DNA of 51,988 bases from a virus. Below, piece after piece: positions 198 through 25,721 of this stretch (the first letter of the stretch is position 1; every line of letters begins with the position of its first letter). The notes under the pieces are model-generated. The model saw nothing but the letters and a program-made list of their open reading frames with translations. It made no database searches and had not been told where the DNA came from. The position numbers and the translations under genes were made by a program. The stretch is taken from positions 1 through 51,988 of IMG/VR virus record IMGVR_UViG_3300006026_000020. One strand, written 5' to 3'.

Positions 198-2043
198 TCT
201 CATAACTCTCGACTTCGAAACATACTTTGATAAAGACTACAGTCTGCGCAAGCAAAATATGACTTACGAACGCTACATCCAAGACAAGCGTTTCAAAGTT
301 CAAATGGTCGCTATCAAAGTGAACAATAACCCAACTGAAATTGTCACTAACAACATTAAGGAAGTGCTACAAAAAACAATCGGGCCAGAGGACATAGTAG
401 TTGCACATAACTATTTGTTTGATGGCGCAATTCTTTCATTTCATTTTGGAATAAAACCAAATACAGCCTTTTGCACGCAAGCAATGGGCCGTGCAATATT
501 TCCTTTCGGTAAAAACTCGCTTGATGGTTTAGCGCAACAATGTTTCCCTGACGGCACTCTCCGCAAAGGAGAAGGGTTAATGGACACCAAAGGAAAGGTT
601 GACCTGACTCCCGAAGAAATCTCGACACTCGGCACTTACGCAAAGCAAGATGTCGATGTTACCTTCGAAATATTTAGATACTTGTACAGTTTCTTCCCTC
701 CCAAAGAACTTGCTGTCATGAATCTAACGCTCCAGATGTATACGCATCGCGTAATGACTGTCGATCAACCCCTTGTCAAACAGTACTTATGTGACATAAA
801 AACACGTGCGGATACATACATTCGGGAGTCAGGTCTTGAAAAGTCGGTACTAAGTTCTAGTAAAAAGTTCTCAGAATGGGTACTATCCCAAGGTCTCGAA
901 TTCGAACAAATACCGTCACCGACGCTCAAAAACCCCCACAACATGAAGTGGCCGTTGAGCAAGAACGACCTAGAATTCATTCAATTACAAGAGCGCTATC
1001 CAGAATACAAACACGTTTGGGACGCACGCCTCGCAGTTGCAAGTAGGCAAGAAGAAACCCGCGCTGAAACATTTCTGGTCAACTCAAGTAATCCGCAAAG
1101 TTTGATTGGAGTTCCGTTGAACTACGCTGGTGCCCACACCCTTCGCTGGTCTGGCACCAACAAAGTCAACCTACAAAACTTAGGACGGGGATCACCGCTC
1201 CGGAATGCGTTAAAAGCGCAGCCAGGATACAAACTTGTCATCGCTGACAGCAGCAACATTGAAGCACGACTGCTTGCATGGTTCGCTGAAGAAACAAGAC
1301 TTCTGTATCTTTATTCCACTGGAGGCGATCCGTACTTAGATTTTGCTGGACAAATTTTTGGTCCAGGGTTGACTAAAGAACGGAACCCAACTGAACGTTT
1401 TATTGGCAAAACCTGCGTACTGGGCCTTGGCTACGGTATGGGTGCAGCCAAACTTCATAAAACATTCGCAACTGGAGCCTCGGGTAAAAGAGTTGATGTA
1501 TCACTTAACGAAGCAAAACATTACGTCAACACCTTCCGTAGCTTGTACCCAAATATCCCTAGGTATTGGGGCAGATGTGAACTTTTCATCAAGCAAATGC
1601 TACTTCCAGACTCAGACATCCCAGAGCGTGGCTTGTCAGTCAAAACAGGTGGCTTGCTAATGCCTGATGGTATGTACATGCGCTACCCCTCGTTAAAAGC
1701 GTATCACGACCACAGAACAGACAGGGACGTTAGCCATTATCACAATGGCAAACACATCGTTAACATCTATGGTGGAAAACTCACTGAAAACATTGTTCAA
1801 CGTGCAGCACGTTGCGTTCTTCGAGACATCATGCTTGATGTCCAAACCGAATGGTGCAAGAACAACGATGCAAGCATTGTTCTTCAAGTACATGACGAAA
1901 TCGTTGTACACACACGCGAAGACCAGGCAGAGCAATGTAAAGAAGTTGTATCAAACATCATGTGCCGAACACCTGCATGGGCAGACGACACGCTTGTACT
2001 AGATACGGAGGCTGAAATCAGTGATTACTACACCAAACCGTGA
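190..2043 (+). CDS. polA: Family A DNA polymerase with 3'-5' exonuclease
   Basis: This 617-aa replicative polymerase of the PolA family would copy phage DNA in the cytoplasm. The N-terminal DEDD proofreading domain shows LDFET (Exo I, residues 7-11), VVAHNYLFDG (Exo II, about 70-80) and YAKQDVDVT (Exo III, about 151-159). The polymerase domain has motif A, IADSSNIEAR, with D353 and E358; motif B with R403, K407 and Y415-G416; and motif C, QVHDEIV, with H568, D569 and E570. No 5'-3' exonuclease domain is present, as usual for phage PolA. The position aligned with E. coli Phe762 is Leu411 (codon CTG at 1420-1422). Marine virus surveys have linked Leu at this site with slower, often temperate phages, which fits the integrase and repressor here. 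The gene heads the recognisable replication block. Confidence 0.97.
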   Translation: MSNLITLDFETYFDKDYSLRKQNMTYERYIQDKRFKVQMVAIKVNNNPTEIVTNNIKEVLQKTIGPEDIVVAHNYLFDGAILSFHFGIKPNTAFCTQAMGRAIFPFGKNSLDGLAQQCFPDGTLRKGEGLMDTKGKVDLTPEEISTLGTYAKQDVDVTFEIFRYLYSFFPPKELAVMNLTLQMYTHRVMTVDQPLVKQYLCDIKTRADTYIRESGLEKSVLSSSKKFSEWVLSQGLEFEQIPSPTLKNPHNMKWPLSKNDLEFIQLQERYPEYKHVWDARLAVASRQEETRAETFLVNSSNPQSLIGVPLNYAGAHTLRWSGTNKVNLQNLGRGSPLRNALKAQPGYKLVIADSSNIEARLLAWFAEETRLLYLYSTGGDPYLDFAGQIFGPGLTKERNPTERFIGKTCVLGLGYGMGAAKLHKTFATGASGKRVDVSLNEAKHYVNTFRSLYPNIPRYWGRCELFIKQMLLPDSDIPERGLSVKTGGLLMPDGMYMRYPSLKAYHDHRTDRDVSHYHNGKHIVNIYGGKLTENIVQRAARCVLRDIMLDVQTEWCKNNDASIVLQVHDEIVVHTREDQAEQCKEVVSNIMCRTPAWADDTLVLDTEAEISDYYTKP

Positions 2044-2050
2044 GGTATCC

Positions 2051-2239
2051 ATGGCACGTAAGGGGTCATTACATTTAGCCCGACCAGTTGGTTCAAGCGT
2101 CATTATCGGTAAAGGGCAGGAAAAAGTCGTCGTCATTGTCGACAGCATAAAAGAAACAGACAAAGGGCTAATCGCAAATCTCATAATGAAAGCAGATAAG
2201 AGCGTGACCATTCAGCGGGGCGAACGGTCTACTCGATAG
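2051..2239 (+). CDS. csrA: CsrA/RsmA-like RNA-binding regulator
   Basis: The product has 62 aa. The start at ATG 2051 is set by GAGG at 2042-2045, which overlaps the polymerase stop. The sequence aligns along its length with carbon storage regulator CsrA. LHLARPVG at residues 7-14 matches the CsrA N-terminal strand LILTRRVG, keeping the Leu4 and Arg6 equivalents. VIIG matches LMIG. The strand VVVIVDSIK, the stretch NLIMKADKSVTI and RGE at 56-58 match the later strands and the RNA-contacting Arg44 region. CsrA is a dimer that binds GGA motifs in mRNA leaders and changes translation or stability. CsrA homologues are known in phages. The target here, host or phage mRNA, is unknown. A small unrelated beta protein is the alternative. 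Confidence 0.72.
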   Translation: MARKGSLHLARPVGSSVIIGKGQEKVVVIVDSIKETDKGLIANLIMKADKSVTIQRGERSTR

Positions 2240-2248
2240 GGAGGATAT

Positions 2249-4789
2249 ATGGAACTTACCTTTCTACGGTCAAGTATGCCGCTATCAAAGATTTTCAATG
2301 ATGGGCGGGTACAAAGCTATCCAAAGGGAAGTGAGTTTACGAGCAACACAGCAACAATTGCTTCAACTCAGGATTTACTCAATGAACTACAAACGCACGC
2401 AAGGTATGGATGTGCAATACACACAGGACGGCTAACCAGGCCTCTTGTAAACGAATCGAGAAAAGGCGCGCACGACAGGCAGGGCCATACCAAGTTTTTA
2501 ATCCTCGATATCGACGGGTTAGAGCTGCCTTACCAAATCGGCACTCAATGCTCGGCAATCGACGTAGAAAAAGCAGCAACTCGCATTGCAACTTATCTTC
2601 CTGAATGCTTACAAAACACATCGTTCGTAGCTCATGCCAGTTCGAGTTTTGGCTTGCACAAGTCGACAGTGTCGCTACACATGATGTACATGCTCGATAA
2701 AGCGCTGCCACCAAAGATCATAAAAGCTTGCCTCGAAGGGCTAAACGCAACTGTCCCTTACTTAAAGGAACGGTTAGCACTTAGCTCAAGCGGGTTTTCA
2801 CTCAAATATCCGCTTGACATAGTGGTTAATGACAATGGTCGTTTGATCTATGTTGCACCGCCTAGATTTATAGGTAATCCCTCTAACCCATTTGGTAACG
2901 ACGATGATCGCTTTTGCTTAGTGCAGAATAAAAACGACATTTTAAATACTGACGATTTTATCTACGCATCAAAAGCTAACGTCGCACAAAGAGAACTAGC
3001 TGCTGTACTTAAAACGCTGCGCAAAGAAGCTGGGTTACAAGCAAAACAGTGGAAAGAAAAAACAACAACTAGTTACGAAGGCGAGGTTACATACATCGCT
3101 AACCCTGACCGCGTCACCATCGTAATGAATGAAGAACGTGGCGACTTTGTAGGCTATAACGTACTTGGCCCCGGACGATCAGGCGACAGTGGCGCTTACT
3201 GGTGCCCACGTAACGATCCTAAAATCATGTTCAACTTCAAAGGAGAAACGCCGTTTGACTTTGAAAAAGCTGATCCTTCTGCTTACGCAGAACATGTTCA
3301 TAAATTTTGTAGCGTTGACACCTATCAATCAGATTCTGGTGAAGCTCCTCTTGTCTATCAAGATATTGAGACTGGTCATTGGTGCTATACGCTTATAAAT
3401 GATGTGGAAGATACGATTGCACTAGCTCCGGTTGACTGCCGAAACAATGTAGGACCAATCAAAAATTTTCTAGCAAACTATGGTTTGCAAATGCCTGAAG
3501 TACTCCCGCTATGGGAAATGACATTCGACCCAAGACCAACTTCTCGCGCTATCGATAGAGATAAAAAGTTACTTAATACTTTTAACGAACCAAAAATGCT
3601 GCGGAACATGGTTGATTTGCCCAACAAATACATCAACGCAACATTCGGACAAGGCGCTTACCTAAAAGAAATTTGCCCAACACTACACAACATCATTGCT
3701 TGTGCTTGCGGGCAAGATCTTAAAAACAAAAACACAGAAGGGCGGAATGAGTTTGAACATGTAATCAACTGGCTTGCGTGCATTGTTCAAAACAGAACAA
3801 AAACCAGGGTTGCTATGGTGTTTCAAGGCATACAGGGCACAGGTAAAGGCCAGCTTTTCAAACACATTCTGCAACCTATCTTTGGTAAGTATGCTAAACA
3901 AGTTCGCATTAATGATATGCGCGACAGGTTCAATGCTTTTCTTGATGAAAACATTATCTTAAACATTGATGAATTCAGTCTAAGTAGATCAAAAGACAAA
4001 ACAGTCTTAGAAAATTTAAAAGGCATCATCACCGAAGAAACACAACCCGTGCGCCGGATGCAACGTGTTGTTGAAGCAATGCCTAACTACACTAACGTAC
4101 TGATCTTTACTAACCAACGAGGTGCTATCCCGCTCGAAGAATCCAACAGACGTTTTCGTATTTGCCCATATCAAACTCGGCCAATGAAAGAACAAATGCC
4201 AGAGTTCGTATTCAAATCACAAGAAGAACAGACTCAACTTTGTAATACAGAATTACCGCGCCTGGTTACGTTCTTGTCTAAATTCATCGTCGACACTCGT
4301 GAATTGATAAACATCAATTTAACCGACGCAAACTTACAATCGTTCCTGGCAGCACAAAGTGTTGAAGAGGAGTTCTTCTACAACATAAGAGTAGGCAATC
4401 TTGATTTCTTCCTCGATGTGCTACTTGAAGACGACTACAAAAATGAATACGTATCGAGCGCTAAGACAGCCATTATAGATTGGATTAGGGCAGTAGATGG
4501 AGATCAACCATCACTCGTTTTAAATTCGCACACAATGGCGCTGTATAACACCATGGTTGGGTTCATTGATAAAGCAGGTGTGTTTGGCAAAAAGATGCGT
4601 AACGCTGGTATTGAAACCAAAGACATCAGACGCAAAAACGTGCACGGAACGGGTTACGAAATACGCATGACCACTAAGCTAACTGAAATTGAACGACGAG
4701 AATTACTCAATGCAGAAGCAGAACGGCTCAGAAAGAAAACAGGTATATCGTACAATATTTCGTCACAAACACACAAAAACGTTGATTAA
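2249..4789 (+). CDS. Primase-helicase: AEP primase fused to SF3 (D5-like) helicase
   Basis: The product has 846 aa, with ATG 2249 behind a strong GGAGG. The N-terminal half carries the archaeo-eukaryotic primase signature: hydrophobic-DxD at 85-90 (ILDIDG; D87, D89), SLH at 142-144, and a later acidic strand (LDIVVND). The C-terminal half is a superfamily 3 AAA+ helicase: Walker A GIQGTGKG at 527-534, Walker B NIDEF with D574-E575, motif C IFTN at 619-622 and an arginine-finger-like NRRF at 633-636. The fusion would both prime and unwind DNA at the fork beside the PolA enzyme. No separate DnaB- or DnaG-like gene is visible. It is followed by a 27-nt gap that holds a promoter/palindrome. Confidence 0.93.
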   Translation: MELTFLRSSMPLSKIFNDGRVQSYPKGSEFTSNTATIASTQDLLNELQTHARYGCAIHTGRLTRPLVNESRKGAHDRQGHTKFLILDIDGLELPYQIGTQCSAIDVEKAATRIATYLPECLQNTSFVAHASSSFGLHKSTVSLHMMYMLDKALPPKIIKACLEGLNATVPYLKERLALSSSGFSLKYPLDIVVNDNGRLIYVAPPRFIGNPSNPFGNDDDRFCLVQNKNDILNTDDFIYASKANVAQRELAAVLKTLRKEAGLQAKQWKEKTTTSYEGEVTYIANPDRVTIVMNEERGDFVGYNVLGPGRSGDSGAYWCPRNDPKIMFNFKGETPFDFEKADPSAYAEHVHKFCSVDTYQSDSGEAPLVYQDIETGHWCYTLINDVEDTIALAPVDCRNNVGPIKNFLANYGLQMPEVLPLWEMTFDPRPTSRAIDRDKKLLNTFNEPKMLRNMVDLPNKYINATFGQGAYLKEICPTLHNIIACACGQDLKNKNTEGRNEFEHVINWLACIVQNRTKTRVAMVFQGIQGTGKGQLFKHILQPIFGKYAKQVRINDMRDRFNAFLDENIILNIDEFSLSRSKDKTVLENLKGIITEETQPVRRMQRVVEAMPNYTNVLIFTNQRGAIPLEESNRRFRICPYQTRPMKEQMPEFVFKSQEEQTQLCNTELPRLVTFLSKFIVDTRELININLTDANLQSFLAAQSVEEEFFYNIRVGNLDFFLDVLLEDDYKNEYVSSAKTAIIDWIRAVDGDQPSLVLNSHTMALYNTMVGFIDKAGVFGKKMRNAGIETKDIRRKNVHGTGYEIRMTTKLTEIERRELLNAEAERLRKKTGISYNISSQTHKNVD

Positions 4790-10606: not shown

Positions 10607-10762
10607 TTAGTTCCCTTTGCCGTTGTTGTGTAAGTCAAAAAGAGCTTTCACCTTCTCTTCAAGCACTTCAACTCGTGTCATCAACTTGCTAATCGACATC
10701 ACCAAAACAATAAACCCTACAAATAGAGGCCAGATGTCTGATACAAGCCCTACATAATCCAC
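10607..10762 (-). CDS. Small membrane/coiled-coil protein (51 aa) of the lysis cassette
   Basis: GTG 10762 shares its first base with the TAG of integrase, and AGGGAGG lies 7 nt upstream inside the integrase 3' end and inside palindrome c. The peptide has one transmembrane helix (WPLFVGFIVLVMSI) followed by a charged coiled coil (MTRVEVLEEKVKALFDLH). This form is common for holin partners or antiholins placed before a holin. The role is inferred from position and shape. Confidence 0.65.
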   Translation of the reverse strand: MDYVGLVSDIWPLFVGFIVLVMSISKLMTRVEVLEEKVKALFDLHNNGKGN

Positions 10763-11781
10763 TATAGGTCCTCCCTATATTTTACACCTATTGTTGTAGC
10801 TTTTAAATTCGTGTAACGCTTCAGTTGCTTCCAGTCAGAATGCCCAGAAATGTGTGCAACCTCTTGAACTGCCATCCCCACTTCAAAAAAACGACTTATC
10901 GCCTCATGACGTGAATCATGGAACACCAGATCTTTTATACCGAGGCGGCGAGTTAGCTTTGCAAAGCTATCGCTGACCGAAGACGCCAGTTTAGGGTGTG
11001 TGAACACACATAAATCACCAGGTAAACGGTGTGTATACCACTCTTGCAGCAAGTTCTCTGCCGAAGGGAACATAGGAATAGTGCGATGGTTGCCAATCTT
11101 GCGTTTGTTATGCTTCGCATCCCTCACAGTGATTGTTTTCGCATCAAAATCAACATCCCCCCATTCCAACTTATGCAGTTCCCCTTGGCGCATTGCTGTT
11201 TCAAGTGCCAATTTAAAGTAGTCAATGACCCACTCGTCACTCGACAATAGTAAATCCAGCTCGTCACTCGTCACTCGACGATCACGCTGCTGCGATCCGC
11301 CTGTTAAGCCGTAGCTGTCTAGAAGGGGGAGGACTTGCCTTACGGGGTTGTCAAATTTCAATGAAGATAAGGCTGCTACGTCGTCCAGAGCGCGAGCAAA
11401 GATGTACATCTGCTTTGATAACGTACTTTGAGACACCTCTCCGCGCCGCTCTCGGGCAAATTTTAGCAGCTTGTCGACAGTCAAATTACGAACTGTGTCC
11501 CTACCAAATTTCCTGCGGCAAATGTCGAGTGCCGAGAGTTTTGATCGAGCAAATGGTTTGATCGGGTGAAAATGATCGATGTAGGTGGTTATAAAGTCAT
11601 CAATCGTGCGGTAGTTTAGTGTAACGGCATCCATGTAGCTGCCGCTGTCCATAGCCGCTTCAATTTTGCGTGCCCAAGCCTTCGCTTCGGTCTTAGTATC
11701 GAAGGTTTCAGCGACACGAGCGTAGCCATGACGCCTGACGATAGCCTGACAACGCCCACTTTGCTCCCGAAAAGTAGCCAT
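10762..11781 (-). CDS. int: Tyrosine site-specific integrase
   Basis: ATG 11781 follows AGGAG with good spacing and gives 339 aa beginning with an arm-binding region (FREQSGRCQAIVRRHGYARV). The catalytic domain shows R198 (AMRQGEL), a basic beta hairpin (DAKHNKRKIGNHRT), H288 and R291 (HDSRH), H314 (GHSDW) and the nucleophile Y323 (KRYTNL). All key residues of the recombinase are present. It would recombine attP, about 95 bp upstream, with a tRNA-Ser attB. The gene is followed with a one-base overlap by the lysis cassette, so integrase and holin are read in the same direction and probably on one transcript. Confidence 0.95.
   Translation of the reverse strand: MATFREQSGRCQAIVRRHGYARVAETFDTKTEAKAWARKIEAAMDSGSYMDAVTLNYRTIDDFITTYIDHFHPIKPFARSKLSALDICRRKFGRDTVRNLTVDKLLKFARERRGEVSQSTLSKQMYIFARALDDVAALSSLKFDNPVRQVLPLLDSYGLTGGSQQRDRRVTSDELDLLLSSDEWVIDYFKLALETAMRQGELHKLEWGDVDFDAKTITVRDAKHNKRKIGNHRTIPMFPSAENLLQEWYTHRLPGDLCVFTHPKLASSVSDSFAKLTRRLGIKDLVFHDSRHEAISRFFEVGMAVQEVAHISGHSDWKQLKRYTNLKATTIGVKYREDL
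10764..10778. promoter_or_regulatory. 15-bp palindrome, site c (one mismatch)
   Basis: Read on the coding (-) strand it is ATAGGG-AGG-ACCTAT, ending 1 nt before the GTG of the 51-aa gene. The left arm and centre contain that gene's Shine-Dalgarno, so protein binding to RNA, or hairpin formation, could also affect translation. Confidence 0.5.
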
Positions 11782-11808
11782 ACGAATCTCCTGTCTTGAA
11801 GACTCGAA

Positions 11809-11827
11809 TGTACTTATAATGTACTTA
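11809..11827. repeat. TGTACTTA direct repeats upstream of integrase
   Basis: Two copies of TGTACTTA begin at 11809 and 11820, exactly 11 bp apart (one helical turn). A third copy lies within the GTACTTAAAGTAC palindrome on the far side of attP (12013-12026). The phasing and placement suggest binding sites for integrase arms, an excisionase or the repressor. The function is inferred. Confidence 0.45.
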
Positions 11828-11857
11828 AGGCGCAACAGGCTATAAAAATAGTCTGTA

Positions 11858-12028: not shown

Positions 12029-12697
12029 TCACTGTGGCAGCTGAATCGCGGTAACTTTACTAACCGAATGGACTCCCCCGTTCTTCGACTTAAAAACCGT
12101 TTTTTGAGTCTGTGTCACAGGGTCAATTGCCAGAAAACTATTCTTCTGAAGATTCAAAATTTGAAGCAGTTCATTGGGCTTTTGCTCGCCCGGATCTTTG
12201 TAAATTACCCACACAAAATCAGTTGGCCGTAACTCTTTAAAGTCAGTATGGCTGCAAATTAAATACGCCCCCGTTGGTATCAACGGAGATCTCATATTCT
12301 CATTAACAAAAACCGCAAAACTATTTTCAGAATTTTTTGCTTCTGCTGCTAAGTTCACTTTCACCTCTCCAACCGCTCCTCCAAAACTCCCGATAGCAAA
12401 CAATACGGGTACAAAAACGCTTTTTGTTTTAAGCGGTACATACTTGAACAATTCAGGAGATATTTGCCCCGGCACCACCTCCAATATTTCCGCAATTTTT
12501 AAAACGAAATTTGTGTTGAGAGGGATACGGCCATTGAGGTATTGGTTGAAAGAAGCTTGAGTAATACCTAGCGTTTGCGCAACCTTAACTTGCGTTAAGT
12601 TCAATTCGCGCTTTTTACTATCCCAGACTTTTCGTAATGTAGTGCGTGATTTTTCTTTATTTTTAATTATTGACGATGAGTTTTTGACTAATCGCAT
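12029..12697 (-). CDS. CI-like repressor: HTH plus degenerate S24 domain
   Basis: ATG 12697 sits behind AGGAG and gives 222 aa, overlapping the upstream gene by 35 nt. The N-terminal lambda-repressor-like HTH spans about residues 21-70, with the helix-turn-helix at about 35-54 (TQVKVAQTLGITQASFNQYL). The C-terminal half follows the LexA/CI S24 fold (SFAVFVNENMRSPLIPTGAY... FVWVIY...). The catalytic Ser of the usual SM pair is Asn134 (NM), and the Lys-bearing strand reads NELLQILNL without Lys. Self-cleavage therefore looks lost, and SOS induction must work differently or not at all. There is no divergent cro-like gene. It is read in the late direction towards integrase. Confidence 0.85.
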   Translation of the reverse strand: MRLVKNSSSIIKNKEKSRTTLRKVWDSKKRELNLTQVKVAQTLGITQASFNQYLNGRIPLNTNFVLKIAEILEVVPGQISPELFKYVPLKTKSVFVPVLFAIGSFGGAVGEVKVNLAAEAKNSENSFAVFVNENMRSPLIPTGAYLICSHTDFKELRPTDFVWVIYKDPGEQKPNELLQILNLQKNSFLAIDPVTQTQKTVFKSKNGGVHSVSKVTAIQLPQ

Positions 12698-13073
12698 TTG
12701 CGATCTCCTTGGGTGATAACCCATTGTCGAAAAAGGCTGATCGAACTAAGCCTTGCTCTGCTACTGCCTCAAAATCGTCTTCGATTAAGAGTCCTCCATA
12801 GGTAGTACCTATTACTAAGGCAACAGTAATACCTGCGACTTGGCGTTGTGTCAACCAATTTATTTGTAGTGGGGAAAGCTTTGGCTTGATTCGAGTAGAG
12901 GCGCGCTTAGGAAAAGTTGCCACATATTTGTATTCAACAAAAATTATCTTGCCGTCTGGCCCATGGTACCAAGCATCTGGAACACCACCTGCAAATTTGT
13001 CGCAGATCTTCCAGACAAAAACATCGTCTGGTAAATGGCGATGTATTGAACGTACGTAGCTATGTTCGTTCAT
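12663..13073 (-). CDS. VRR-NUC-like PD-(D/E)XK nuclease
   Basis: This 136-aa small nuclease fold has FAGGVPDAWY (catalytic Asp) followed by IIFVEYKYV (E-x-K), then the helix LSPLQINWLTQRQ and the strand TVALVIG. This is the order seen in VRR-NUC and Holliday-junction-resolvase-like domains. The probable role is cutting branched DNA or DNA ends, though location in the immunity region also allows a host-interaction role. ATG 13073 follows the lipoprotein stop with no gap (TAGATG). Its 3' half contains palindrome d, about 100 bp ahead of the repressor start. Confidence 0.75.
   Translation of the reverse strand: MNEHSYVRSIHRHLPDDVFVWKICDKFAGGVPDAWYHGPDGKIIFVEYKYVATFPKRASTRIKPKLSPLQINWLTQRQVAGITVALVIGTTYGGLLIEDDFEAVAEQGLVRSAFFDNGLSPKEIANAISQKLIVNN
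12798..12812. promoter_or_regulatory. 15-bp palindrome, site d (inside the nuclease gene)
   Basis: Perfect copy ATAGGT-AGT-ACCTAT. It lies inside the VRR-NUC gene and 101 bp upstream of the repressor start, the position expected for repressor autoregulation. It is the only full-strength copy inside a coding region. Confidence 0.5.
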
Positions 13074-15455: not shown

Positions 15456-18400
15456 TCATTTACTAAAAGTCCAACTTATCCCGTTAATCACCGAACTTTC
15501 TAACGTTACAGTAACGCTGTTTTTAGTAACTGTAGTTACTTTCCTACTCGATGTGTTTGTGCTGTTCAAACTGACACTAGCACTCGCTCCGTTAGACTGC
15601 TGTGTGTGTGATGTTGTGGAGATCGAAGTACCGCTGGCGCTGTAACTCATGCGAATGACAGTCGTACCTAACGACGTTCCAGAACCGTCGCGCCATTGAA
15701 TGGTTACATCGTAAGGCGCTGTCGGTCCACTAACCTGAGCATCACTTGATAATGCCGACCAGACTGCTGTAGGTGACCTGTCTAGCGTGTAAGTGGTTAC
15801 GTTAGTGTTCAGCGTACTTGCTGGAACCTGCGAGACTGTTACAGAGTTCTGTGTAGCTAAAGCTCCCTGATTTGCAATTCCGAGGGCATTGTTGGCTGAG
15901 GTTACGTCTGCATTATCGGCTGGTACACCTGTGCCACCTACTAGCTGCCAGTTTGCATTGCCACGCGTATCTGCAATTTCTTGGACTAGCGTTGCTGCTC
16001 CATTACCGTCAACAATGTTGCTAGTGTACATGTTGACAACCCAATTCGATGACCAGAGTTTTGCGTCGTAGTTAGCATAGCCAACCGTGACATTCCGAAC
16101 TCTAAGTTGAGGGTAGCTCCAAGAACTATTGGTATCGCCTATTTGAACAGCCCAGCGAGTATTCGCCAAGTTTCGTCCAAATCTCACTTTGTGATACAGA
16201 GCGCCGTAGGGATTACTAGCTGAGTATTCGTACCATCTGACACCTGAAGTGTGTCCCGTAATTCTGTAAGTTACCGATTTATTCGTCACATAGTTATAAA
16301 TGTCTACCTCAAATGAGATCATGGTAGTGACGTTGGCGGGTAACTCGATATGGAGACAGCCTGTTATGTTACCGTTAAAACCATAAATACCACCGCCTGG
16401 TGAGGCTATATTAGTGACTTGCCCTTCGGTATATGTGTCATTTGTCGCTCTTGGATCACCCTCGCGTATAGAGTATTCGGCTAAATATAGGGACGACGAT
16501 GTTGGACTTGTGACGCCAGTGGCTCTTAAAGCTAACAAGCCAATGCGTACAGTTACCGCTCCTGGTGGGATTTGAGTTACGTTAGCCCCGCCTATGCTAA
16601 TTTCGTATTTCGTCCATGTGCTTGGAAAAACGCTATTAACTACACCCCAATAATGATAAGTCCCAGCCGCGGGCCATCCAGTAGGACTATTAGACCCTAA
16701 TAATGTATTTTGGGATGCGTCTTCAAACCAGCAAGTGATGTAATTCCGTTTGTTTCCCGCTGCTTGTCGTGCCCACACTGTTATAGTGTAAGGCTGATCA
16801 GGATCAATCGGTATTCGGTCTGTAAAAAATGAATTATCACCTGAAGCATTATCTTGGTAATAGAAAACACTGTTTGACCCCGAAGGTGATGTGGTGTCCG
16901 TCGAATATACTATGCTTAAACCATTTCCTGGAGTGCCACTAGCAGGCCAGTCAACACCGTCATATTGGAAATATGGGTTTTTGTTTAGTGCTCCGGCTAA
17001 CGGCGCATATTGTGCCACGCCTGCTGCGGAATAACGACCATTAGGCAATGCGCCTGTTGATATGTTAGCTGCGTTTGTTGTGTCAGTTGTCGCAGACGCT
17101 GCTTGACCTGTAATTCCGAGGGCAATGTTTCCTGACGTTTGGTCAGCGTTGTTAGTGACGCCGCTCAGTCCGACGTTGCCTTGGTTTACGGTGTAAGACG
17201 TAGTGCCTGCACCGGATAGTCCAAAGGTTTGACCACTGATGCTTAGGTTGACGCCAGTATTACGCAAGCCAGTAGCAGCGTTACCTGTAGGTAATAATCC
17301 TGAGACACCACCAGCACCAGTAGTCTCTAAGTTCACCGTGTTGGCCGTTGCTAAAGCTCCCTGATTTGCAATTCCGAGGGCATTGTTGGCTGACGTTACG
17401 TCTGCGTTGTCTGCCGGTACTCCAGTTCCACCAACTAGCTGCCAATTTGCGTTAGCTCGTGAATCGGAGACCGTTCGAGTAACTCCTTCAATACTACTTG
17501 AGCTGATGTCTACCGCCCAGCCATCGTCCCAGTTATCTACGCCGTAAGAAGAGTATCCGAATGTGCAATTTCTTACGCGAATTTGTGGGTAAGACCATGT
17601 TGCATTTGTTGCCCCAATACCCACTTGCCAGCGAGACGATCCGTAACCAAAAGTGACTTGGCGAGCCAGACTTCCGTTAGGGCACGAGGCAGCTTCTTGG
17701 TACCAAGTTGTTCCTGATGTGTGCCCAGAAATTAGATATGTACTACTCGTGCCTGTTACGTAGTTGTAAATATCCACCTCAAAATTCATCATTGTTGATA
17801 GGTTACCAACGGCTGGTAAAAAAATACGAATCTGTCCAGTGATGTTACCGTTGTAGCTGTATGTTCCCCCTATCGGGACAGCGATGTTTGTAACCCCTCC
17901 TTTTTCGCTGTTGTTATAGTTAGGCGTTAGAGGGCCAAACTCTAGTGCGTTCACACGCGTGCCTGTGCTTCGATAGAAAGAACTGTCGAAGTACAGTGGG
18001 CTTGCTGAAACAAAGGGAACGTTTCGTTGCAAGACTCCATCTTTGTAGTATTTAACTTGCGACCCGTCCCATGTAATGCTTAAAACTGTAGAAGTTGAGT
18101 ACGACCCATAACTACCAATCGACGTTCCATTTTCGTAAATATTGAGAGACGCACTTTCTGCTGGATACCAAGCAAAATCTAGGTCATTATAATCGCCGCT
18201 TGTGCCTGGATCACTGTTTAGCCCTAGCATGTGAAATTTGTCAGTTTGCCCAGGCTTAAACTTGACATAGCAAGCCTGAAACCCATCAACAGAGTGAACG
18301 TCGTAGTTCCAGGTGCCATTTGTTCCACCGCTAACGTAAAGACTGTTCCCTTCCCAGGTGTAACTTCGGTTGCTATTAGTCTCCGTTATTGGGAAGGCTT

Positions 18401-21400
18401 GATAGCCTTTGTCATTGAGGAACGTATCAGACGCATAAGCAGCGGGTAGTTGCCCTGATACCCCGCCAGCAGCCGTAGTCGCTAAATTCACTGTATTAGA
18501 GGTAGCTAACGTACCCTGACCACTAATGTTGGCAGCAGTGTTTGCTGAGGTTTGGTCAGCATTGTTAGTGACGCCGCTGAGTCCGACGTTGCCTTGATCA
18601 AGTGTGGTATTACCGCCGCCGTTATTTAATTGCAGCGTCTGGCCGCTAGTGCTTAACGACAAATTGTTGTTTTGATATGCAGTAGTCGCAAAGAATGAAT
18701 TAAGCGGCGGCTCACTGCCATCTACAAGATGAATAATAGGCGGTGCAAATAGCTGTCGGTCTGCTGTGCTGGAGCAGTAATACATATAAGCACGGGTATT
18801 TACAGTACCTGGGGCGTTTATCCAATTAAAATTCAGGTATGTCGAAATCTGCGTTCCGGTAGCCATCTCGTAAACACCAGATCCGTCGTGTGTCCATCCT
18901 GTAGTGTTATAGGGGTAGACATAACCGACGAACAAATACCACTGACCTGTAGTCATACTGCTGCGGTTTATAACAGCAAAATAAGGGTTACCCTGCGTTG
19001 TAGTAGTGTTTAGATCAGCTACTTTATTAGCCTCGATTCCCCAATAAGCAGTTCCGGTTCTAGTGCTGCTACTAGCCTGGATGGGTACAACAAAACGATA
19101 AGTTTTAGTTTGGTCAGGCGTAAATCTAGGGGAACTGCCCCATCCTCCATTAGCAGTGTTAGCAACAGTCGATGTAGAATTAGCTTGCCAAAGTACCTGA
19201 TACCCGTATCGAGGCCCAAGGCCAACAATCATTTCATTTTGGGCTTCACCACCGTTAGTTCCCCATCCGCTCGCTACGGTGCTGCTGGCAGCGGTCCACC
19301 CACTAATGTCTTGTAGGTTGCCGCGCGAGTTCGCTGGTACTTGCTCAGTCGTTACAGAGTTTTGAGTTGCTAAAGCGCCTTGTCCAGTAATACCAGCAGC
19401 AGTGTTTGCTGACGTTACGTCTGCGTTGTCTGCCGGAGTTCCAGTACCAGCAATATCAGCCCATCGATTGGAACTAATTGGACCAAATGTCAAATTTTCG
19501 ATTGACCTAGCTGCGTTTTCATAGAACGCGCAGTCTAAATACAAAGCGTTGGTAATCTCCGTTGTTACTTCTCTTTCAAGCGATCCATTTAAATAATATT
19601 TGATAGCAGAACCTGTGTAGATAATAGTCGCCACAGTGCTTGAGTTATACGCTCCAGAGCTAAGGACTTGACTACCACTTTCATAAATATAAATGTTCCC
19701 GTTCGCCCAGTGCCACGCGTAGTCTAAGTTAGTCCAGCTTGCGGTTCCCGTAGGGTCGCTGTTCAACCCCATCATTAGGTTAACTGCCGATGTTGTTGGA
19801 CAAGTACCGCTACAAAAACAGCCAGAAACGTACCCTTCGTTTGAGTACCACGATTTATTCCAGCCATTCCCTAAACCAGACATTGTGAGCTTGTTGCCCG
19901 TGACGACTGCGGTTCCAGCTAATGCGGTTCCTACTAATGCTTTTACGCCTAATCCTGGTGCGGTAACTTGTCCAGCGCCTGCTCCGCCCAATGTTCCATC
20001 TGCGTTGATCGAAACGTTCACATTTTGAAGCGTACTAGTAGACGTTAATCCAGTTCCACCGCTACCTTCAGCCAACGTTCCAGACACTTGGCTACCAAGC
20101 GCTACGCTGCTTTGAGTTGCTAAAGCGCCTTGTCCACTAATCGATAAAGCTTGGTTGAGTGACGTTTGGTCAGCGTTATTTTGAACGCCGGTTAGTCCGA
20201 CATTAGATTGATCTAACGTGTAAGTCGTAGCGCCTGCACCAGATAAGCCAAAGGTTTGTCCGCTAATGTTTAGTTCTACGTTTACATTTTCAAGCGTGCT
20301 AGTAGATGTTAATCCAGTTCCACCTTGCGCTGCTGGAAGAGTACCTGAACCGTCGGAAGAGTAGTCGATGTTAGCGTTCTGGATTTCTTCTGTACCAGCA
20401 AGACCAGAAAGATTCGGTGGTAAGTTATCAACGTCAGTACCCCATGTTGCACCCGCTGTCGCCGCTAAATCGCCGCTGTACGTACCGCCGCCGCTGTACT
20501 GAAGCGCATTAGGAATTACAGTTATATCCGTTTGCGCTTCTTCAATCGTGTACTGCGCGAATTCAATAGTTGAAGAAGTCGGGCTTGTTACATTTGTTGA
20601 CCGTAAGCACAAAGCGCCGATACGCACATATCGAGCGCTAGTAGGGATGATAGGTCCGTGAGACCCGCCGAAATGTATTTCGTAACGCGTCCAAGCCGAC
20701 GGGAACTCATCATTGATAACACCCCAGTACCAATAAGTCCCAGCAGAGGGCCATCCCGTAGCGTTTCCAGATGTGTTTATAGTGCCTTCGTTTACGTCTA
20801 AAAATCTAACAGTCAAATAGTTATGTCTGTTTCCTGCGGTCTGCCTAGCCCATACCGTAATTTTGTAAGGTTTAGACGGATCTAACGGCATCACTTCAGA
20901 AAAGAATTCGTTATCTCCACCTGAAGCCCTAGTACCTTGCAGAATTGTGTTACCTGCTGCTGGAGACGAAGTGGTTGTCGTGTAGGTAAAATCTGAGTTT
21001 ATCGACCATGCTGCGCGATTATTGAAAAAAGGATCTTTGTTGATTGCGTTAGACGCAGTGCTGATCGTTGCGTAGTCTTGAACACCAGTGAGACCAACAT
21101 TGCTTTGATCTAGCGTGTAAGTCGTAGATCCTGCGCCTGATAACCCGAACGTAGTACCGCTGATGTCTAAATCTATAGCGCTGTTTTCAATGCCTTCTGT
21201 ACCAGTGAGACTAGAAAGATTCGGTGGTAAGTTATCAACATCCGTGCCCCAAGTCGCACCTGCCGTTGCTGCTAGGTCGCCCGTGTAAGTACCGCCGCCA
21301 GTACGGGCTAAAACGTTATCGACAATGGATGCGTCTAGCGTAACGGTTGCTGCATTACCGCCTGTCAGACTGAGCGTAGATCCTGAGTTAGTCAACGTTA

Positions 21401-24400
21401 CATTAGTGTTGATCAGCCCAGTGTCCGCATTAGCTGTACCTAGTGTTCCCGTTACTTCTGATGTTCCAAGATCAACAGCATCTTTGTCCGCAAGAGCACC
21501 ACTGTTAAATGTACTAACTGCGACCCATGCAGAGCCATCGTAGTATTTCCACTCTTTGTCAGCGGTGTTGTAATAAAACTCACCTGCTTGCCCCGTTGGG
21601 TCGGTCGCAGCGGAAGCTAGAATACTGTTGTGGGTTGCATCTATTTCGCCCGTAAACTCGGTCGCGCCAGCGGTGTAGTACAGAGCGTTGTCAATGTTTG
21701 AACTAGCATCAAGGTTAACTCCGGTGCTTGTGTTTGCGCCGTAAGTGACACTAAGCGTTGATCCGGTTGTTGATACGTCTAGCGCTGAGTTTCTTAGATC
21801 CTCATCAGATAAAAGCGTCGATCCATCTTCTGCTAGAACATTCGTTCCGAGCGTTGGTAGGGTCGCGCCAATGTTAATAAAGTTGATGTTTTTAATGATG
21901 GTCGTGTGTTGCGATCCGATACCATCAATTGAGGAGTCAAGCGCTAACGAGGATGGTTGAGTAGCTGGCACAACTGAGCGTTCTACAACTCCATTTAGCA
22001 TGTAGCGAATGGTTGTGCCGTCCCACGATATTGTTAAAACATCGCCTGCGGTAATAGAGCCGAAAAGGACTGTGGACCCGCCAGATTGAATAACCGATCC
22101 GCTTTCAAAAATTACATAATCGCCAGTATTGCCCCTCACATACCAGCAATAGTCAATAGTCGAATAACTAGCATTTGTAGCGGGGTCTGAATTTAAGCCA
22201 ATCATGTATCGGCTAGTGGTAGAACCGATGGTAAAAGATACCGCGCAACCGCCTACCGAAGCATCTTTTGAGTAGAACTGAGTTGACCAATTGCCAGTGC
22301 TTTGATTGCCAGAGGATTGGATATCAAGACCAACTTGGGTTACCGTCTGGTTATTGCCCGCTGGTATGACAAGAGGGATGCTCGTGATACTTTGTAGAGA
22401 CGAAAATTCTCCAATATTGATGTCAGTCAAGCTAGTCGGGGTGTTCGTGACCTCGCCAGTCGTGTAATCAACGCTATCTTTATCTGCTAATTCTCCGGTG
22501 TTCAGCGTTGCCCAGTTTTCCCAAGTTGAACCGTTGTATTCATAAAGTTTTTTTTCATCGGTACGGTAAAAAAGATCGCCTGCACTCGGTGCTGGATTTG
22601 TCGGAAAAGCCGTACCAGAACCCATAGTGTTATTTGTTGCGTCTAACGCCCCTCCGAAGCCAAGGCCAGAAAGAGATATGCCAGTGCCTGCTCCTGTATA
22701 ATCAAAACTTCCGTCATCGTTTAATGTGACATTAGTGTTGATTAAATCTACGTCAGTAAGATTCGTAGTTCCGTCTTCAGCAAAGATGTTTCCACCAGAT
22801 CCTAAAATCCCCCCAATTGTTGCAATTGCAACCCAACCTGAACCTGCCCCGTCCCAGAGCCATAAGGCACTAGTCTCTGTAACGAACGCGATCTCTCCAC
22901 CGCTAAAGGAAGTTGTACTAGCGTTAGTTCGTGCCAGCTCGGTTGCAAAGGTATAATCAATTACTAAATTCCTATTAGCATCGGCTGGAGGTTTAACCCC
23001 GCCAAGATCTGCGAAGTCAATGTCGCCAGCTTGAGGATTGATATCCCACGTTCTGAGTTCAGACCAGTAGCCAATGACAGGATACTCATCTCCATTTGTA
23101 TCGTTTGTTCTGATATAAAAACGGCCAGAACCAATAAAGCGCCAGGGTGCGGCACCTGACTGTAGCGCTGTTGCTGTACTTGAACCTGCGCTAAGACTAC
23201 CGACAAAAGCTTCCCCAATATCTGCACGCGTTGCATCTTCGAGGTCGTAGGTGGCATAAGAAGTCCAAGCTGTACCACTCCAATACTCAGCTTTAATTGT
23301 TGTTGCCTCTAGCGCAACAATTTGAAAACCAGCAATCGCGTGGTGGATGTAATAAGTATCCCCGAGGGCGTTAATAGGTACATAATGATCGGCATCCGAC
23401 CCGCTACCATCTTGATTGCTTATGGCCCCAATAGGTGATAGAGCGTAATAATATTTAGCTCCTTCAGTTGTTCCCGTTATCGAACTAACAGGATCGGCAG
23501 TAAAACTAGCAAAAGCTGCTGTTCGTGCGCCGACAACTTCGTTTTCAGTTCTAGGAACCCAAGCGAAGTCCTGATTATCAGTAGTCCACTTAACCATAAC
23601 GATTGGCGTATCACTGTAAAAAATGTGATAAATCGCTGTATTGTCAGTAGTACTAATGTCAATTGTCGTAACAGTCTTAAATGGTACGCCAGTCGACGAC
23701 CATGTAACCGTTCCGTTATTACCCGCCCAGTCGACATGGCTTCCAATGCTTTGGCCCCCCGGTGCTGCTTCTTGCGCATACTTAATAATCCCCGCAGCAA
23801 AAGGCGCGTAAATTTTGAAGCGTTGAGTCGTACCTCTGTTCGTGTGGGTAATAAATTTATAGCCAGTATGAGCTATGGAGGGAATCGGGTAGCCGCTTTC
23901 ATTATGCAAGCTGACAGGCCGATTAGATGTGATGATATCCCCGGCGGTAACAGATATTGTCCCGGTGTCAGCCGAGTCAGCCTGAGAAAGAGTTTTAGAT
24001 TGGTTGATGTAAAGATCAGTGCCGTCCTCGTGGGCAACGTAGCTAAGGCTCCCAGTTTCAAATGCAATCCGCTGTCCGAGGATACCTAATGCTTGCTGCT
24101 GCCTGTTAGTAGCTGTGGCATCAACAATCGGTACACCATTTTCATCAATTAAGTTACCGCTTGCCCCCGTTTGAGCGCCGACTGTAGACCCGATAACCCA
24201 AGCGGTGCCATTCCAATACTTAGACGTGTAAGGGATAGTAGAGGTATCAATCCAGATAGTAGCAGCGTACTCGTCTTCTGCTTGAGTAGTGGGGTTCGCT
24301 GGAGCAATTGGTCCCCAATAAACGCCTCCATACTGAGCTACCGCAGTAAAACCAACGGAATCCTCTGAAATTGTGGTAGTGCCCTCAACCAATCCAGTCC

Positions 24401-25721
24401 CTGCGTCAGCGCCGTCCTGTATATCTTGTGGAATGTTTTCAGCGGTAACGTCGCCCCACTTAACCCAAGTTTCGACCGGAGTAGGGGTCCCAACCAGCAA
24501 CAAAACATAGAACGCGTTATCGGTGGTGTTATACCAAAAGTCGCCTAACGAATAGTTAGAAGCAGTAGGATTAGTCGCTCCCTGACCTACAAGGTTTTCA
24601 GTTGGCAGGTTGTTACCGCCATTAAGTAGGACCTGTGCCCATGTCGTATTGGTATTTAGAACAGTAGTGTCGCTTAGTGCGTTACCACTTTCATCTTGTA
24701 AGACGTTTTCACCAGCGGCATTGGTAGTATTAAGGCGGATACCATTTACCGTCAGCTCGATTGTGCCGTTGTTGTCATAGGTGCCAAGAACAGCGCCATC
24801 TAAAATGATTCGATCTGCTTCGAGCGTGCCGACTGTAATCTTATTACCCGCAATCGTGTCGATTTGCGCAGTGCCGATTGTGGTATTGGCGATCTGCGCA
24901 TTAGTAACAGTTAGCGCTTTTATATAAGCGCCGTCCATAACCACTTGGTTATTTTGCGTATCTACAGCAAAGATCAAGTCGCCAATCGCGTTACCGCCAA
25001 CATCAGGAGAGCGAATCTTAAAAGTGTCAGCTTTAACTATAAACTCACTGATTTCGTCAAAAACCAGTGCATCATCAGCATCTGCTTCACTTAAAGCGGC
25101 AAGAAGATTAGCTGGATCAAGAGCAGGGATAACTGCGCCAGATTCTGCTGCTGCACCTGCGTTATCAGCGTAGGTGCGCCAACGAACAAAGTAGTAATAA
25201 CCTCCAGTTGGTGCGCTGCCTTGCTCGAAGTGATCAGCGAACCCATAGGCACCTGTACCTACGAATACGACATCGTTTGCGGTCGTTGACCCTGTATCTT
25301 CATTAGTTTCATAAACATCAAAGTCATCATTGATAGAGCGGAAGACTTCAGCGTACGCGATGTAATCTTGCGTATCGGTGGGTGGGTCCCAGTTCAAAAG
25401 AACTGTTGTGCTATCAGGAGTGCCAACGGTAAGACCAGTTGGTGCACTAGGCGTAGTTTGATCCGTAAACGCAGCTGAGTTACCGCCCGTAGTAACGACA
25501 TTCCCGTCGCCTGTTACAACACCCGCTGCGACATTAGAACCGTTACGAACAATAATACCAGTACCTTCCAACTCCCCGACTGTGACAGAACGATCCACTT
25601 CATTCTTAGTTTGTCCAAATCGAATACGGCAAGCGTCGGCCAACGCTTGTAAGAATCGAGTCTGCTCTGGAGGTAATCCTTTAGGGACTTGGGGAATCGA
25701 GGGTAACGATTGTCGTGGCAT
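15456..25721 (-). CDS. Giant modular tail fibre protein (3421 aa)
   Basis: ATG 25721 follows the preceding TAA directly, with GGAG upstream. The N-terminus (LPSIPQVPKGLPPEQTRFLQ...VTVGELE) looks like a virion-attachment part. A fibronectin type III domain follows at about residues 88-180 (TPSAPTGLTVGTPDSTTVLL). The rest is a long beta-rich shaft: repeated GNLIDENG/GNVLQDESG/GNIFAEDG-type turns, SLSGAG-TTYTLDQSNVGLTGVQNNADQT repeats, three lectin-like modules and two further pairs of duplicated modules. The C-terminal domain is a beta sandwich ending ISWTFSK. It should bind the host surface. At about 10.3 kb it is a fifth of the window. No frameshift is seen. Confidence 0.93.
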   Translation of the reverse strand: MPRQSLPSIPQVPKGLPPEQTRFLQALADACRIRFGQTKNEVDRSVTVGELEGTGIIVRNGSNVAAGVVTGDGNVVTTGGNSAAFTDQTTPSAPTGLTVGTPDSTTVLLNWDPPTDTQDYIAYAEVFRSINDDFDVYETNEDTGSTTANDVVFVGTGAYGFADHFEQGSAPTGGYYYFVRWRTYADNAGAAAESGAVIPALDPANLLAALSEADADDALVFDEISEFIVKADTFKIRSPDVGGNAIGDLIFAVDTQNNQVVMDGAYIKALTVTNAQIANTTIGTAQIDTIAGNKITVGTLEADRIILDGAVLGTYDNNGTIELTVNGIRLNTTNAAGENVLQDESGNALSDTTVLNTNTTWAQVLLNGGNNLPTENLVGQGATNPTASNYSLGDFWYNTTDNAFYVLLLVGTPTPVETWVKWGDVTAENIPQDIQDGADAGTGLVEGTTTISEDSVGFTAVAQYGGVYWGPIAPANPTTQAEDEYAATIWIDTSTIPYTSKYWNGTAWVIGSTVGAQTGASGNLIDENGVPIVDATATNRQQQALGILGQRIAFETGSLSYVAHEDGTDLYINQSKTLSQADSADTGTISVTAGDIITSNRPVSLHNESGYPIPSIAHTGYKFITHTNRGTTQRFKIYAPFAAGIIKYAQEAAPGGQSIGSHVDWAGNNGTVTWSSTGVPFKTVTTIDISTTDNTAIYHIFYSDTPIVMVKWTTDNQDFAWVPRTENEVVGARTAAFASFTADPVSSITGTTEGAKYYYALSPIGAISNQDGSGSDADHYVPINALGDTYYIHHAIAGFQIVALEATTIKAEYWSGTAWTSYATYDLEDATRADIGEAFVGSLSAGSSTATALQSGAAPWRFIGSGRFYIRTNDTNGDEYPVIGYWSELRTWDINPQAGDIDFADLGGVKPPADANRNLVIDYTFATELARTNASTTSFSGGEIAFVTETSALWLWDGAGSGWVAIATIGGILGSGGNIFAEDGTTNLTDVDLINTNVTLNDDGSFDYTGAGTGISLSGLGFGGALDATNNTMGSGTAFPTNPAPSAGDLFYRTDEKKLYEYNGSTWENWATLNTGELADKDSVDYTTGEVTNTPTSLTDINIGEFSSLQSITSIPLVIPAGNNQTVTQVGLDIQSSGNQSTGNWSTQFYSKDASVGGCAVSFTIGSTTSRYMIGLNSDPATNASYSTIDYCWYVRGNTGDYVIFESGSVIQSGGSTVLFGSITAGDVLTISWDGTTIRYMLNGVVERSVVPATQPSSLALDSSIDGIGSQHTTIIKNINFINIGATLPTLGTNVLAEDGSTLLSDEDLRNSALDVSTTGSTLSVTYGANTSTGVNLDASSNIDNALYYTAGATEFTGEIDATHNSILASAATDPTGQAGEFYYNTADKEWKYYDGSAWVAVSTFNSGALADKDAVDLGTSEVTGTLGTANADTGLINTNVTLTNSGSTLSLTGGNAATVTLDASIVDNVLARTGGGTYTGDLAATAGATWGTDVDNLPPNLSSLTGTEGIENSAIDLDISGTTFGLSGAGSTTYTLDQSNVGLTGVQDYATISTASNAINKDPFFNNRAAWSINSDFTYTTTTSSPAAGNTILQGTRASGGDNEFFSEVMPLDPSKPYKITVWARQTAGNRHNYLTVRFLDVNEGTINTSGNATGWPSAGTYWYWGVINDEFPSAWTRYEIHFGGSHGPIIPTSARYVRIGALCLRSTNVTSPTSSTIEFAQYTIEEAQTDITVIPNALQYSGGGTYSGDLAATAGATWGTDVDNLPPNLSGLAGTEEIQNANIDYSSDGSGTLPAAQGGTGLTSTSTLENVNVELNISGQTFGLSGAGATTYTLDQSNVGLTGVQNNADQTSLNQALSISGQGALATQSSVALGSQVSGTLAEGSGGTGLTSTSTLQNVNVSINADGTLGGAGAGQVTAPGLGVKALVGTALAGTAVVTGNKLTMSGLGNGWNKSWYSNEGYVSGCFCSGTCPTTSAVNLMMGLNSDPTGTASWTNLDYAWHWANGNIYIYESGSQVLSSGAYNSSTVATIIYTGSAIKYYLNGSLEREVTTEITNALYLDCAFYENAARSIENLTFGPISSNRWADIAGTGTPADNADVTSANTAAGITGQGALATQNSVTTEQVPANSRGNLQDISGWTAASSTVASGWGTNGGEAQNEMIVGLGPRYGYQVLWQANSTSTVANTANGGWGSSPRFTPDQTKTYRFVVPIQASSSTRTGTAYWGIEANKVADLNTTTTQGNPYFAVINRSSMTTGQWYLFVGYVYPYNTTGWTHDGSGVYEMATGTQISTYLNFNWINAPGTVNTRAYMYYCSSTADRQLFAPPIIHLVDGSEPPLNSFFATTAYQNNNLSLSTSGQTLQLNNGGGNTTLDQGNVGLSGVTNNADQTSANTAANISGQGTLATSNTVNLATTAAGGVSGQLPAAYASDTFLNDKGYQAFPITETNSNRSYTWEGNSLYVSGGTNGTWNYDVHSVDGFQACYVKFKPGQTDKFHMLGLNSDPGTSGDYNDLDFAWYPAESASLNIYENGTSIGSYGSYSTSTVLSITWDGSQVKYYKDGVLQRNVPFVSASPLYFDSSFYRSTGTRVNALEFGPLTPNYNNSEKGGVTNIAVPIGGTYSYNGNITGQIRIFLPAVGNLSTMMNFEVDIYNYVTGTSSTYLISGHTSGTTWYQEAASCPNGSLARQVTFGYGSSRWQVGIGATNATWSYPQIRVRNCTFGYSSYGVDNWDDGWAVDISSSSIEGVTRTVSDSRANANWQLVGGTGVPADNADVTSANNALGIANQGALATANTVNLETTGAGGVSGLLPTGNAATGLRNTGVNLSISGQTFGLSGAGTTSYTVNQGNVGLSGVTNNADQTSGNIALGITGQAASATTDTTNAANISTGALPNGRYSAAGVAQYAPLAGALNKNPYFQYDGVDWPASGTPGNGLSIVYSTDTTSPSGSNSVFYYQDNASGDNSFFTDRIPIDPDQPYTITVWARQAAGNKRNYITCWFEDASQNTLLGSNSPTGWPAAGTYHYWGVVNSVFPSTWTKYEISIGGANVTQIPPGAVTVRIGLLALRATGVTSPTSSSLYLAEYSIREGDPRATNDTYTEGQVTNIASPGGGIYGFNGNITGCLHIELPANVTTMISFEVDIYNYVTNKSVTYRITGHTSGVRWYEYSASNPYGALYHKVRFGRNLANTRWAVQIGDTNSSWSYPQLRVRNVTVGYANYDAKLWSSNWVVNMYTSNIVDGNGAATLVQEIADTRGNANWQLVGGTGVPADNADVTSANNALGIANQGALATQNSVTVSQVPASTLNTNVTTYTLDRSPTAVWSALSSDAQVSGPTAPYDVTIQWRDGSGTSLGTTVIRMSYSASGTSISTTSHTQQSNGASASVSLNSTNTSSRKVTTVTKNSVTVTLESSVINGISWTFSK
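15850..21050 (-). repeat. Two further duplicated module pairs in the fibre
   Basis: Pair 1, about 20530-21050 and 16450-16990: both read N-K-(D/N)-P-(F/Y)-F, then PYKITVWARQ/PYTITVWARQ, GTYWYWGV/GTYHYWGV and VTSPTSS, like a carbohydrate-binding jelly roll. Pair 2, about 17410-17900 and 15910-16420: both contain VTNIA, NGNITG, MxxFEVDIYNYVT, ITGHTSG/ISGHTSG and NWQLVGGTGVPADN. Near-identical DNA at 15857-15900 and 17347-17390 shows that pair 2 is a recent duplication. Confidence 0.7.
17930..22340 (-). repeat. Three copies of a lectin-like module in the fibre
   Basis: About 130-140 residues each, roughly at 21860-22340, 19480-19900 and 17930-18370. The shared pattern is M-x-GLNSDP, then LDY-x-WY, IYE-x-G, and a strand like ISWDGTTIRYMLNG-x-x-R-x-V. 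This resembles a concanavalin/SPRY-type beta sandwich. Boundaries are approximate. Confidence 0.7.

Follow-up and report, generated by a model that had tools for sequence, protein, structure and literature searches.

The 62-aa open reading frame at 2051-2239 (+ strand, ATG to TAG) of the IMG/VR record analysed here (51,988 bases, hereafter the window) encodes, as judged from its translation and from family profiles, a diverged phage-lineage homologue of CsrA and the most divergent member of its family. The translated product is MARKGSLHLARPVGSSVIIGKGQEKVVVIVDSIKETDKGLIANLIMKADKSVTIQRGERSTR. A sequence-only reading had placed a phage CsrA-like regulator in a replication operon at exactly these coordinates and with this length, and family profiles together with homologues in the same genomic slot support both the assignment and the setting. 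With a probability of about 0.7, the protein is a CsrA/RsmA homologue of a phage lineage that acts as a GGA-binding dimer and serves as a post-transcriptional switch made with the replication proteins. Phage CsrA proteins as such are already known, and the window protein is a new, highly diverged member of this group.

Gene order at the polymerase-primase junction

The csrA-like gene lies between two replication genes on the same strand. Upstream, a family A DNA polymerase with a 3'-5' exonuclease occupies 190-2043 (Pfam PF00476, E=1e-28), and downstream, a DUF5906/VapE-like primase-helicase occupies 2249-4789 (Pfam PF19263, E=2e-15), an order of neighbours that homologues share. The csrA-like frame starts 7 bases past the polymerase stop codon and ends 9 bases ahead of the primase gene. 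Its likely ribosome-binding site, read from the sequence as GAGGT at 2042-2046 (+), contains no GGA and shares bases with the polymerase stop codon (2041-2043). Beyond the primase-helicase gene lie those for an SNF2-type helicase and two nucleases, a PD-(D/E)XK nuclease and an exonuclease.

A tyrosine integrase (10762-11835, - strand) and a Cro/CI-type HTH protein (12029-12724, - strand) are also encoded in the window, and the phage is therefore probably temperate, despite having a replication operon of its own. The structural region includes a 3,421-aa frame with internal repeats (15456-25721, - strand), whose product is likely to be a giant fibre or to act in host specificity.

The only close copy of the window protein is carried by a contig that shares 99.97% identity with the window, so that selection cannot be measured on the window branch itself; the window primase, used as a lone query, recovered this same contig and nothing else. 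A search with the window helicase led to four loci (L035, L042, L045 and L046) that carry a small open reading frame between polymerase and primase, and an alignment of seven primases, used as the query, gave the best 80 of 481 relatives in IMG/VR and 16 in bacterial genomes. A CsrA-like frame is present at the junction of DNA polymerase A and DUF5906 primase in 84 of the 100 loci examined, a sample skewed to the best primase matches; because two locus pairs come from the same contigs, this corresponds to 82 of 98 distinct contigs. The csrA gene of many relatives begins immediately behind the polymerase stop codon or overlaps it, and in L040 and L043 the polymerase and primase frames abut with no gene between them. 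Since some eighty related phages share csrA at this site, the gene is a long-standing part of the replication operon. Its carriers are mostly uncultivated phages, and in the phage collection searched the CsrA form was not found at the polymerase-primase position of any cultured phage.

The phage csrA family is under purifying selection, with a median dN/dS of 0.14 over 55 family pairs. Distances between csrA genes follow those between the primases (r=0.87, compared with at most 0.16 in 2,000 permutations). Just past the csrA stop codon, two of the relatives carry a small inverted repeat in which the stem is kept and the loop differs (TTAGC-TTC-GCTAA in L042, 3990-4030; TTAGC-AAA-GCTAA in L045, 3988-4028).

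Descent from CsrA

Taken by itself, the window protein is too diverged to classify, and its syntenic relatives decide the matter. Its identity to any CsrA is roughly 25-35%, and it matches Pfam CsrA (PF02599) at E=0.056 and 13.8 bits, below the 27-bit cutoff, which is a curation threshold. The CsrA-like PHROG profile gives E=0.018, and Pfam T7 gp5.5 (PF11247) gives E=0.034, also below its cutoff. Direct BLAST and phmmer searches with the 62-aa protein gave no match, either among PDB sequences or in the 50,697 phage records of INPHARED, and the alignment of CsrA proteins varied too much to be of use in pattern scans. The claim of the sequence-only reading that the protein follows CsrA from the first strand to an RNA-contacting arginine nevertheless holds in alignment: residues 7-14 (LHLARPVG) correspond to CsrA 2-9 (LILTRRVG), and R56-G57-E58 corresponds to R44-E45-E46.

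The family gives a much clearer signal. Pfam CsrA matches all 43 aligned members, with a best E of 4.9e-14, and four of the five syntenic homologues tested exceed the Pfam cutoff; PHROG 9500, a CsrA-like regulator, matches 42 of the 43. A profile of known CsrA proteins scores the small frames of L035, L042, L045 and L046 at E=3e-6 to 3e-10 and, with the window protein left out, the window frame at E=1e-4. Likewise, a profile of 42 syntenic homologues from which the window protein was left out retrieves that protein at 24.6 bits (E=1.8e-5), compared with best scores of 12.5 bits among 20,000 shuffles and 9.7 bits among about 11,000 other open reading frames, and the resemblance to CsrA is therefore not due to chance. 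The family profile also matches E. coli CsrA at E=2e-12 and solved CsrA, RsmA and RsmE chains at E values down to 2e-12. Profile comparison with an alignment that includes the query is circular and forms no part of this evidence. In a tree that also includes CsrA proteins of hosts and of other phages, the family forms one cluster, save for one long-branched phage row, and lies away from bacterial CsrA. Because the alignment has few columns and the window protein has by far the longest branch, only the grouping apart from bacterial CsrA is used here.

Candidate RNA targets and the host as an alternative target

The likeliest fold of the window protein is that of the small beta dimer of CsrA, with the strand topology that is predicted for a sister protein. 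R11 and R56, at the positions of CsrA R6 and R44, would bind GGA-containing RNA, single-stranded or in hairpins, near ribosome-binding sites, and such binding may, by analogy with the family, block or alter translation. Because the gene keeps its place between those for DNA polymerase and primase, the protein would be made together with the replication proteins, as gene order suggests, and would probably work as a post-transcriptional switch in the replication phase. The early expression, the redirection of host translation and the control of the phage's own mRNAs that the sequence-only reading suggested are likewise inferences. Candidate actions are feedback on the phage's own mRNAs, for example at the primase leader, or a reprogramming effect on those host mRNAs that host CsrA already controls.

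For the first of these actions, the start region of the primase gene (2240-2253, + strand; GGAGGATATATGGA), which contains three GGA triplets, is a candidate CsrA target and at the same time simply a strong Shine-Dalgarno sequence. The sequence-only reading had pointed to GGA in several phage ribosome-binding regions, an argument that carries little weight because Shine-Dalgarno sequences contain GGA anyway; in the window, neither GGA nor ANGGA is over-represented relative to simulated sequence. Paired GGAs occur at the primase start in 66% of csrA-positive and 37% of csrA-negative phages as raw counts, and since this surplus over csrA-negative primases loses significance once relatives are clustered, no excess is claimed. 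An Rfam scan of the window yielded no CsrB- or RsmZ-like RNA.

It is possible, though unlikely, that the protein is instead a mimic directed at the host, which rivals or supplements host CsrA/RsmA and does not act on phage mRNAs. Such a mimic might redirect the metabolism of the host or keep down its defence genes, CRISPR-Cas for example. Host RsmA is known to repress cas genes, and an anti-CRISPR role has been proposed for phage RsmA homologues (PMC8450108); cultured hosts of related prophages do have a CsrA of their own. However, the phage RsmA proteins described by Campa et al. are host-like (PMC8450108), whereas the present family is distant from its bacterial counterparts and forms a separate group, and its gene is locked into the replication operon. 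Two csrA-positive metagenome bins that show no bacterial CsrA of their own also speak against a host mimic, with the caveat that the binning may be wrong.

A DksA-like gene at the same position

Among csrA-negative loci, the polymerase-primase junction can hold a different small gene. A DksA-like zinc-finger protein (PHROG 54) is encoded there in six such loci (L066, 3779-3991; L129, 7729-7992; L130, 7792-7995; L133, 7738-8004; L136, 7747-7962; L143, 7783-7986) and in Aeromonas phage phiA008 (L145, 4609-4797), in which the frame lies in an unannotated gap. In none of the loci seen do csrA and the DksA-like gene occur together at this position. One may speculate, tentatively and with some doubt, that the junction is a regulator slot that takes either a CsrA-like or a DksA/TraR-like protein, never both. 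The two would be translational and transcriptional mimics of host regulators, swapped to time replication, and the CsrA branch would control primase translation via the GGA sites at the primase start. Whatever its meaning, the exchange at one position offers a natural comparison for finding the role of csrA.

The contig that carries L143 (G010 contig 5), from a Motiliproteus prophage, also encodes a second, divergent CsrA-like protein (L156, 1501-1725). This gene, upstream of the primase by about 10 kb, marks a second location for a phage csrA, and the zinc-finger gene is at the junction.

RNA-contact residues and predicted fold

In CsrA, which folds with five strands as an interlocked dimer, R6, R7 and R44 contact RNA, and strands 1 and 5 pair across the dimer. 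In the phage family, L2 and R44 are invariant in all 43 sequences, and R6 is present in 41 of the 43. The window protein has L9 and R11 at the RNA-contact positions L4 and R6 of strand 1, and I54 and R56 at V42 and R44 of strand 5, whereas R7 of strand 1 is replaced by Pro12, and extra residues lie between strands 3 and 4. Because it ends 6 residues past R56, it lacks the C-terminal helix, and none is predicted in its AlphaFold model. Short tails are general in the phage family (9 residues is the commonest length), and the C-terminal helix is not strictly defining, as PDB entry 5z38 holds a 49-residue chain named truncated CsrA.

Comparison of predicted folds gave a divided answer. The AlphaFold model of the sister protein from L042, as a monomer (pLDDT 82), returns CsrA, RsmA and RsmE chains as its top 13 Foldseek matches, with a probability of 1.00 and rmsd from 1.2 Å. 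The window monomer (pLDDT 74, pTM 0.46) is modelled with strands 2-4 only, and no CsrA is found among its 50 best fold matches. The CsrA fold expected by the sequence-only reading is thus predicted for the sister and does not emerge from the window model, and, because the pairing of strands 1 and 5 in CsrA joins two subunits, modelling a single chain tests the fold only to a limited extent.

These departures could mean that the protein derives from CsrA but lost RNA binding in the window lineage and now works as a structural protein or as an accessory of the replisome, an improbable reading overall. The R7-to-Pro change, the missing helix, the insertion between strands 3 and 4 and the very long branch are consistent with it, as is the location of the gene between polymerase and primase, and the CsrA-like protein of phage JC1 yielded one peptide in virions (PMC9144972). 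Nevertheless, the window protein keeps R56 and R11, and the invariance of R44 and near-invariance of R6 in the family are hard to explain without RNA contact. That the frame is no CsrA at all and owes its likeness to chance, as a small beta-rich or spurious frame such as a T7 gene 5.5 relative might, is very improbable: the single sequence does score slightly better against T7 gp5.5 (E=0.034) than against CsrA (E=0.056), and its own model fails to retrieve CsrA, but its slot and gene order are those of clear CsrA homologues and the shuffle control is equally contrary. The gp5.5 identity was rejected, as that profile matches 1 of the 43 family members, the window protein only, compared with 43 of 43 for CsrA.

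Relation to known phage CsrA proteins

Phage csrA genes have been known since F116, and a survey from 2020 that listed 30 csrA-positive phages puts their share at about 1.2% of phage genomes (PMC7366521). From a search of GenBank and IMG/VR, Campa et al. suggested that phage homologues act against CRISPR (PMC8450108). Such genes are usually described as host-derived morons. The csrA of JC1 is carried as a moron (PMC9144972). The RsmM-type CsrA proteins of Pseudomonas phages (F116, H66 and others) and the CsrA of Vibrio phages are phage-borne like the window gene, and most of them share 55-70% identity with E. coli CsrA, which gives them a host-derived look; the window family, in contrast, stands apart. 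Its csrA has diverged, experiences purifying selection, is inherited along with the primase and keeps a set place inside the replication operon, all of which points to a core function in the life cycle of these phages. Neither the fixed polymerase-primase position nor the exchange with a DksA-like gene is described in the literature found, in a search mostly of journals outside subscription.

With CsrA, RsmA and RsmE (PF02599) at large, the window protein shares the alignment from strand 1 to R44, and its family has the invariant L2 and R44 and the near-invariant R6; it differs in its score below the Pfam cutoff, in proline at R7 and in the lack of a C-terminal helix. The CsrA-like proteins of PHROG 9500, 5527 and 8397 (for example BcepMigl gp50 of a Burkholderia phage and those of the Escherichia phages Pondi and PTXU04) are likewise small phage homologues of CsrA. 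Their genomic contexts are different, however: the BcepMigl gene lies between the portal and major capsid genes, and that of Pondi in another context, whereas the window family is found between polymerase and primase.
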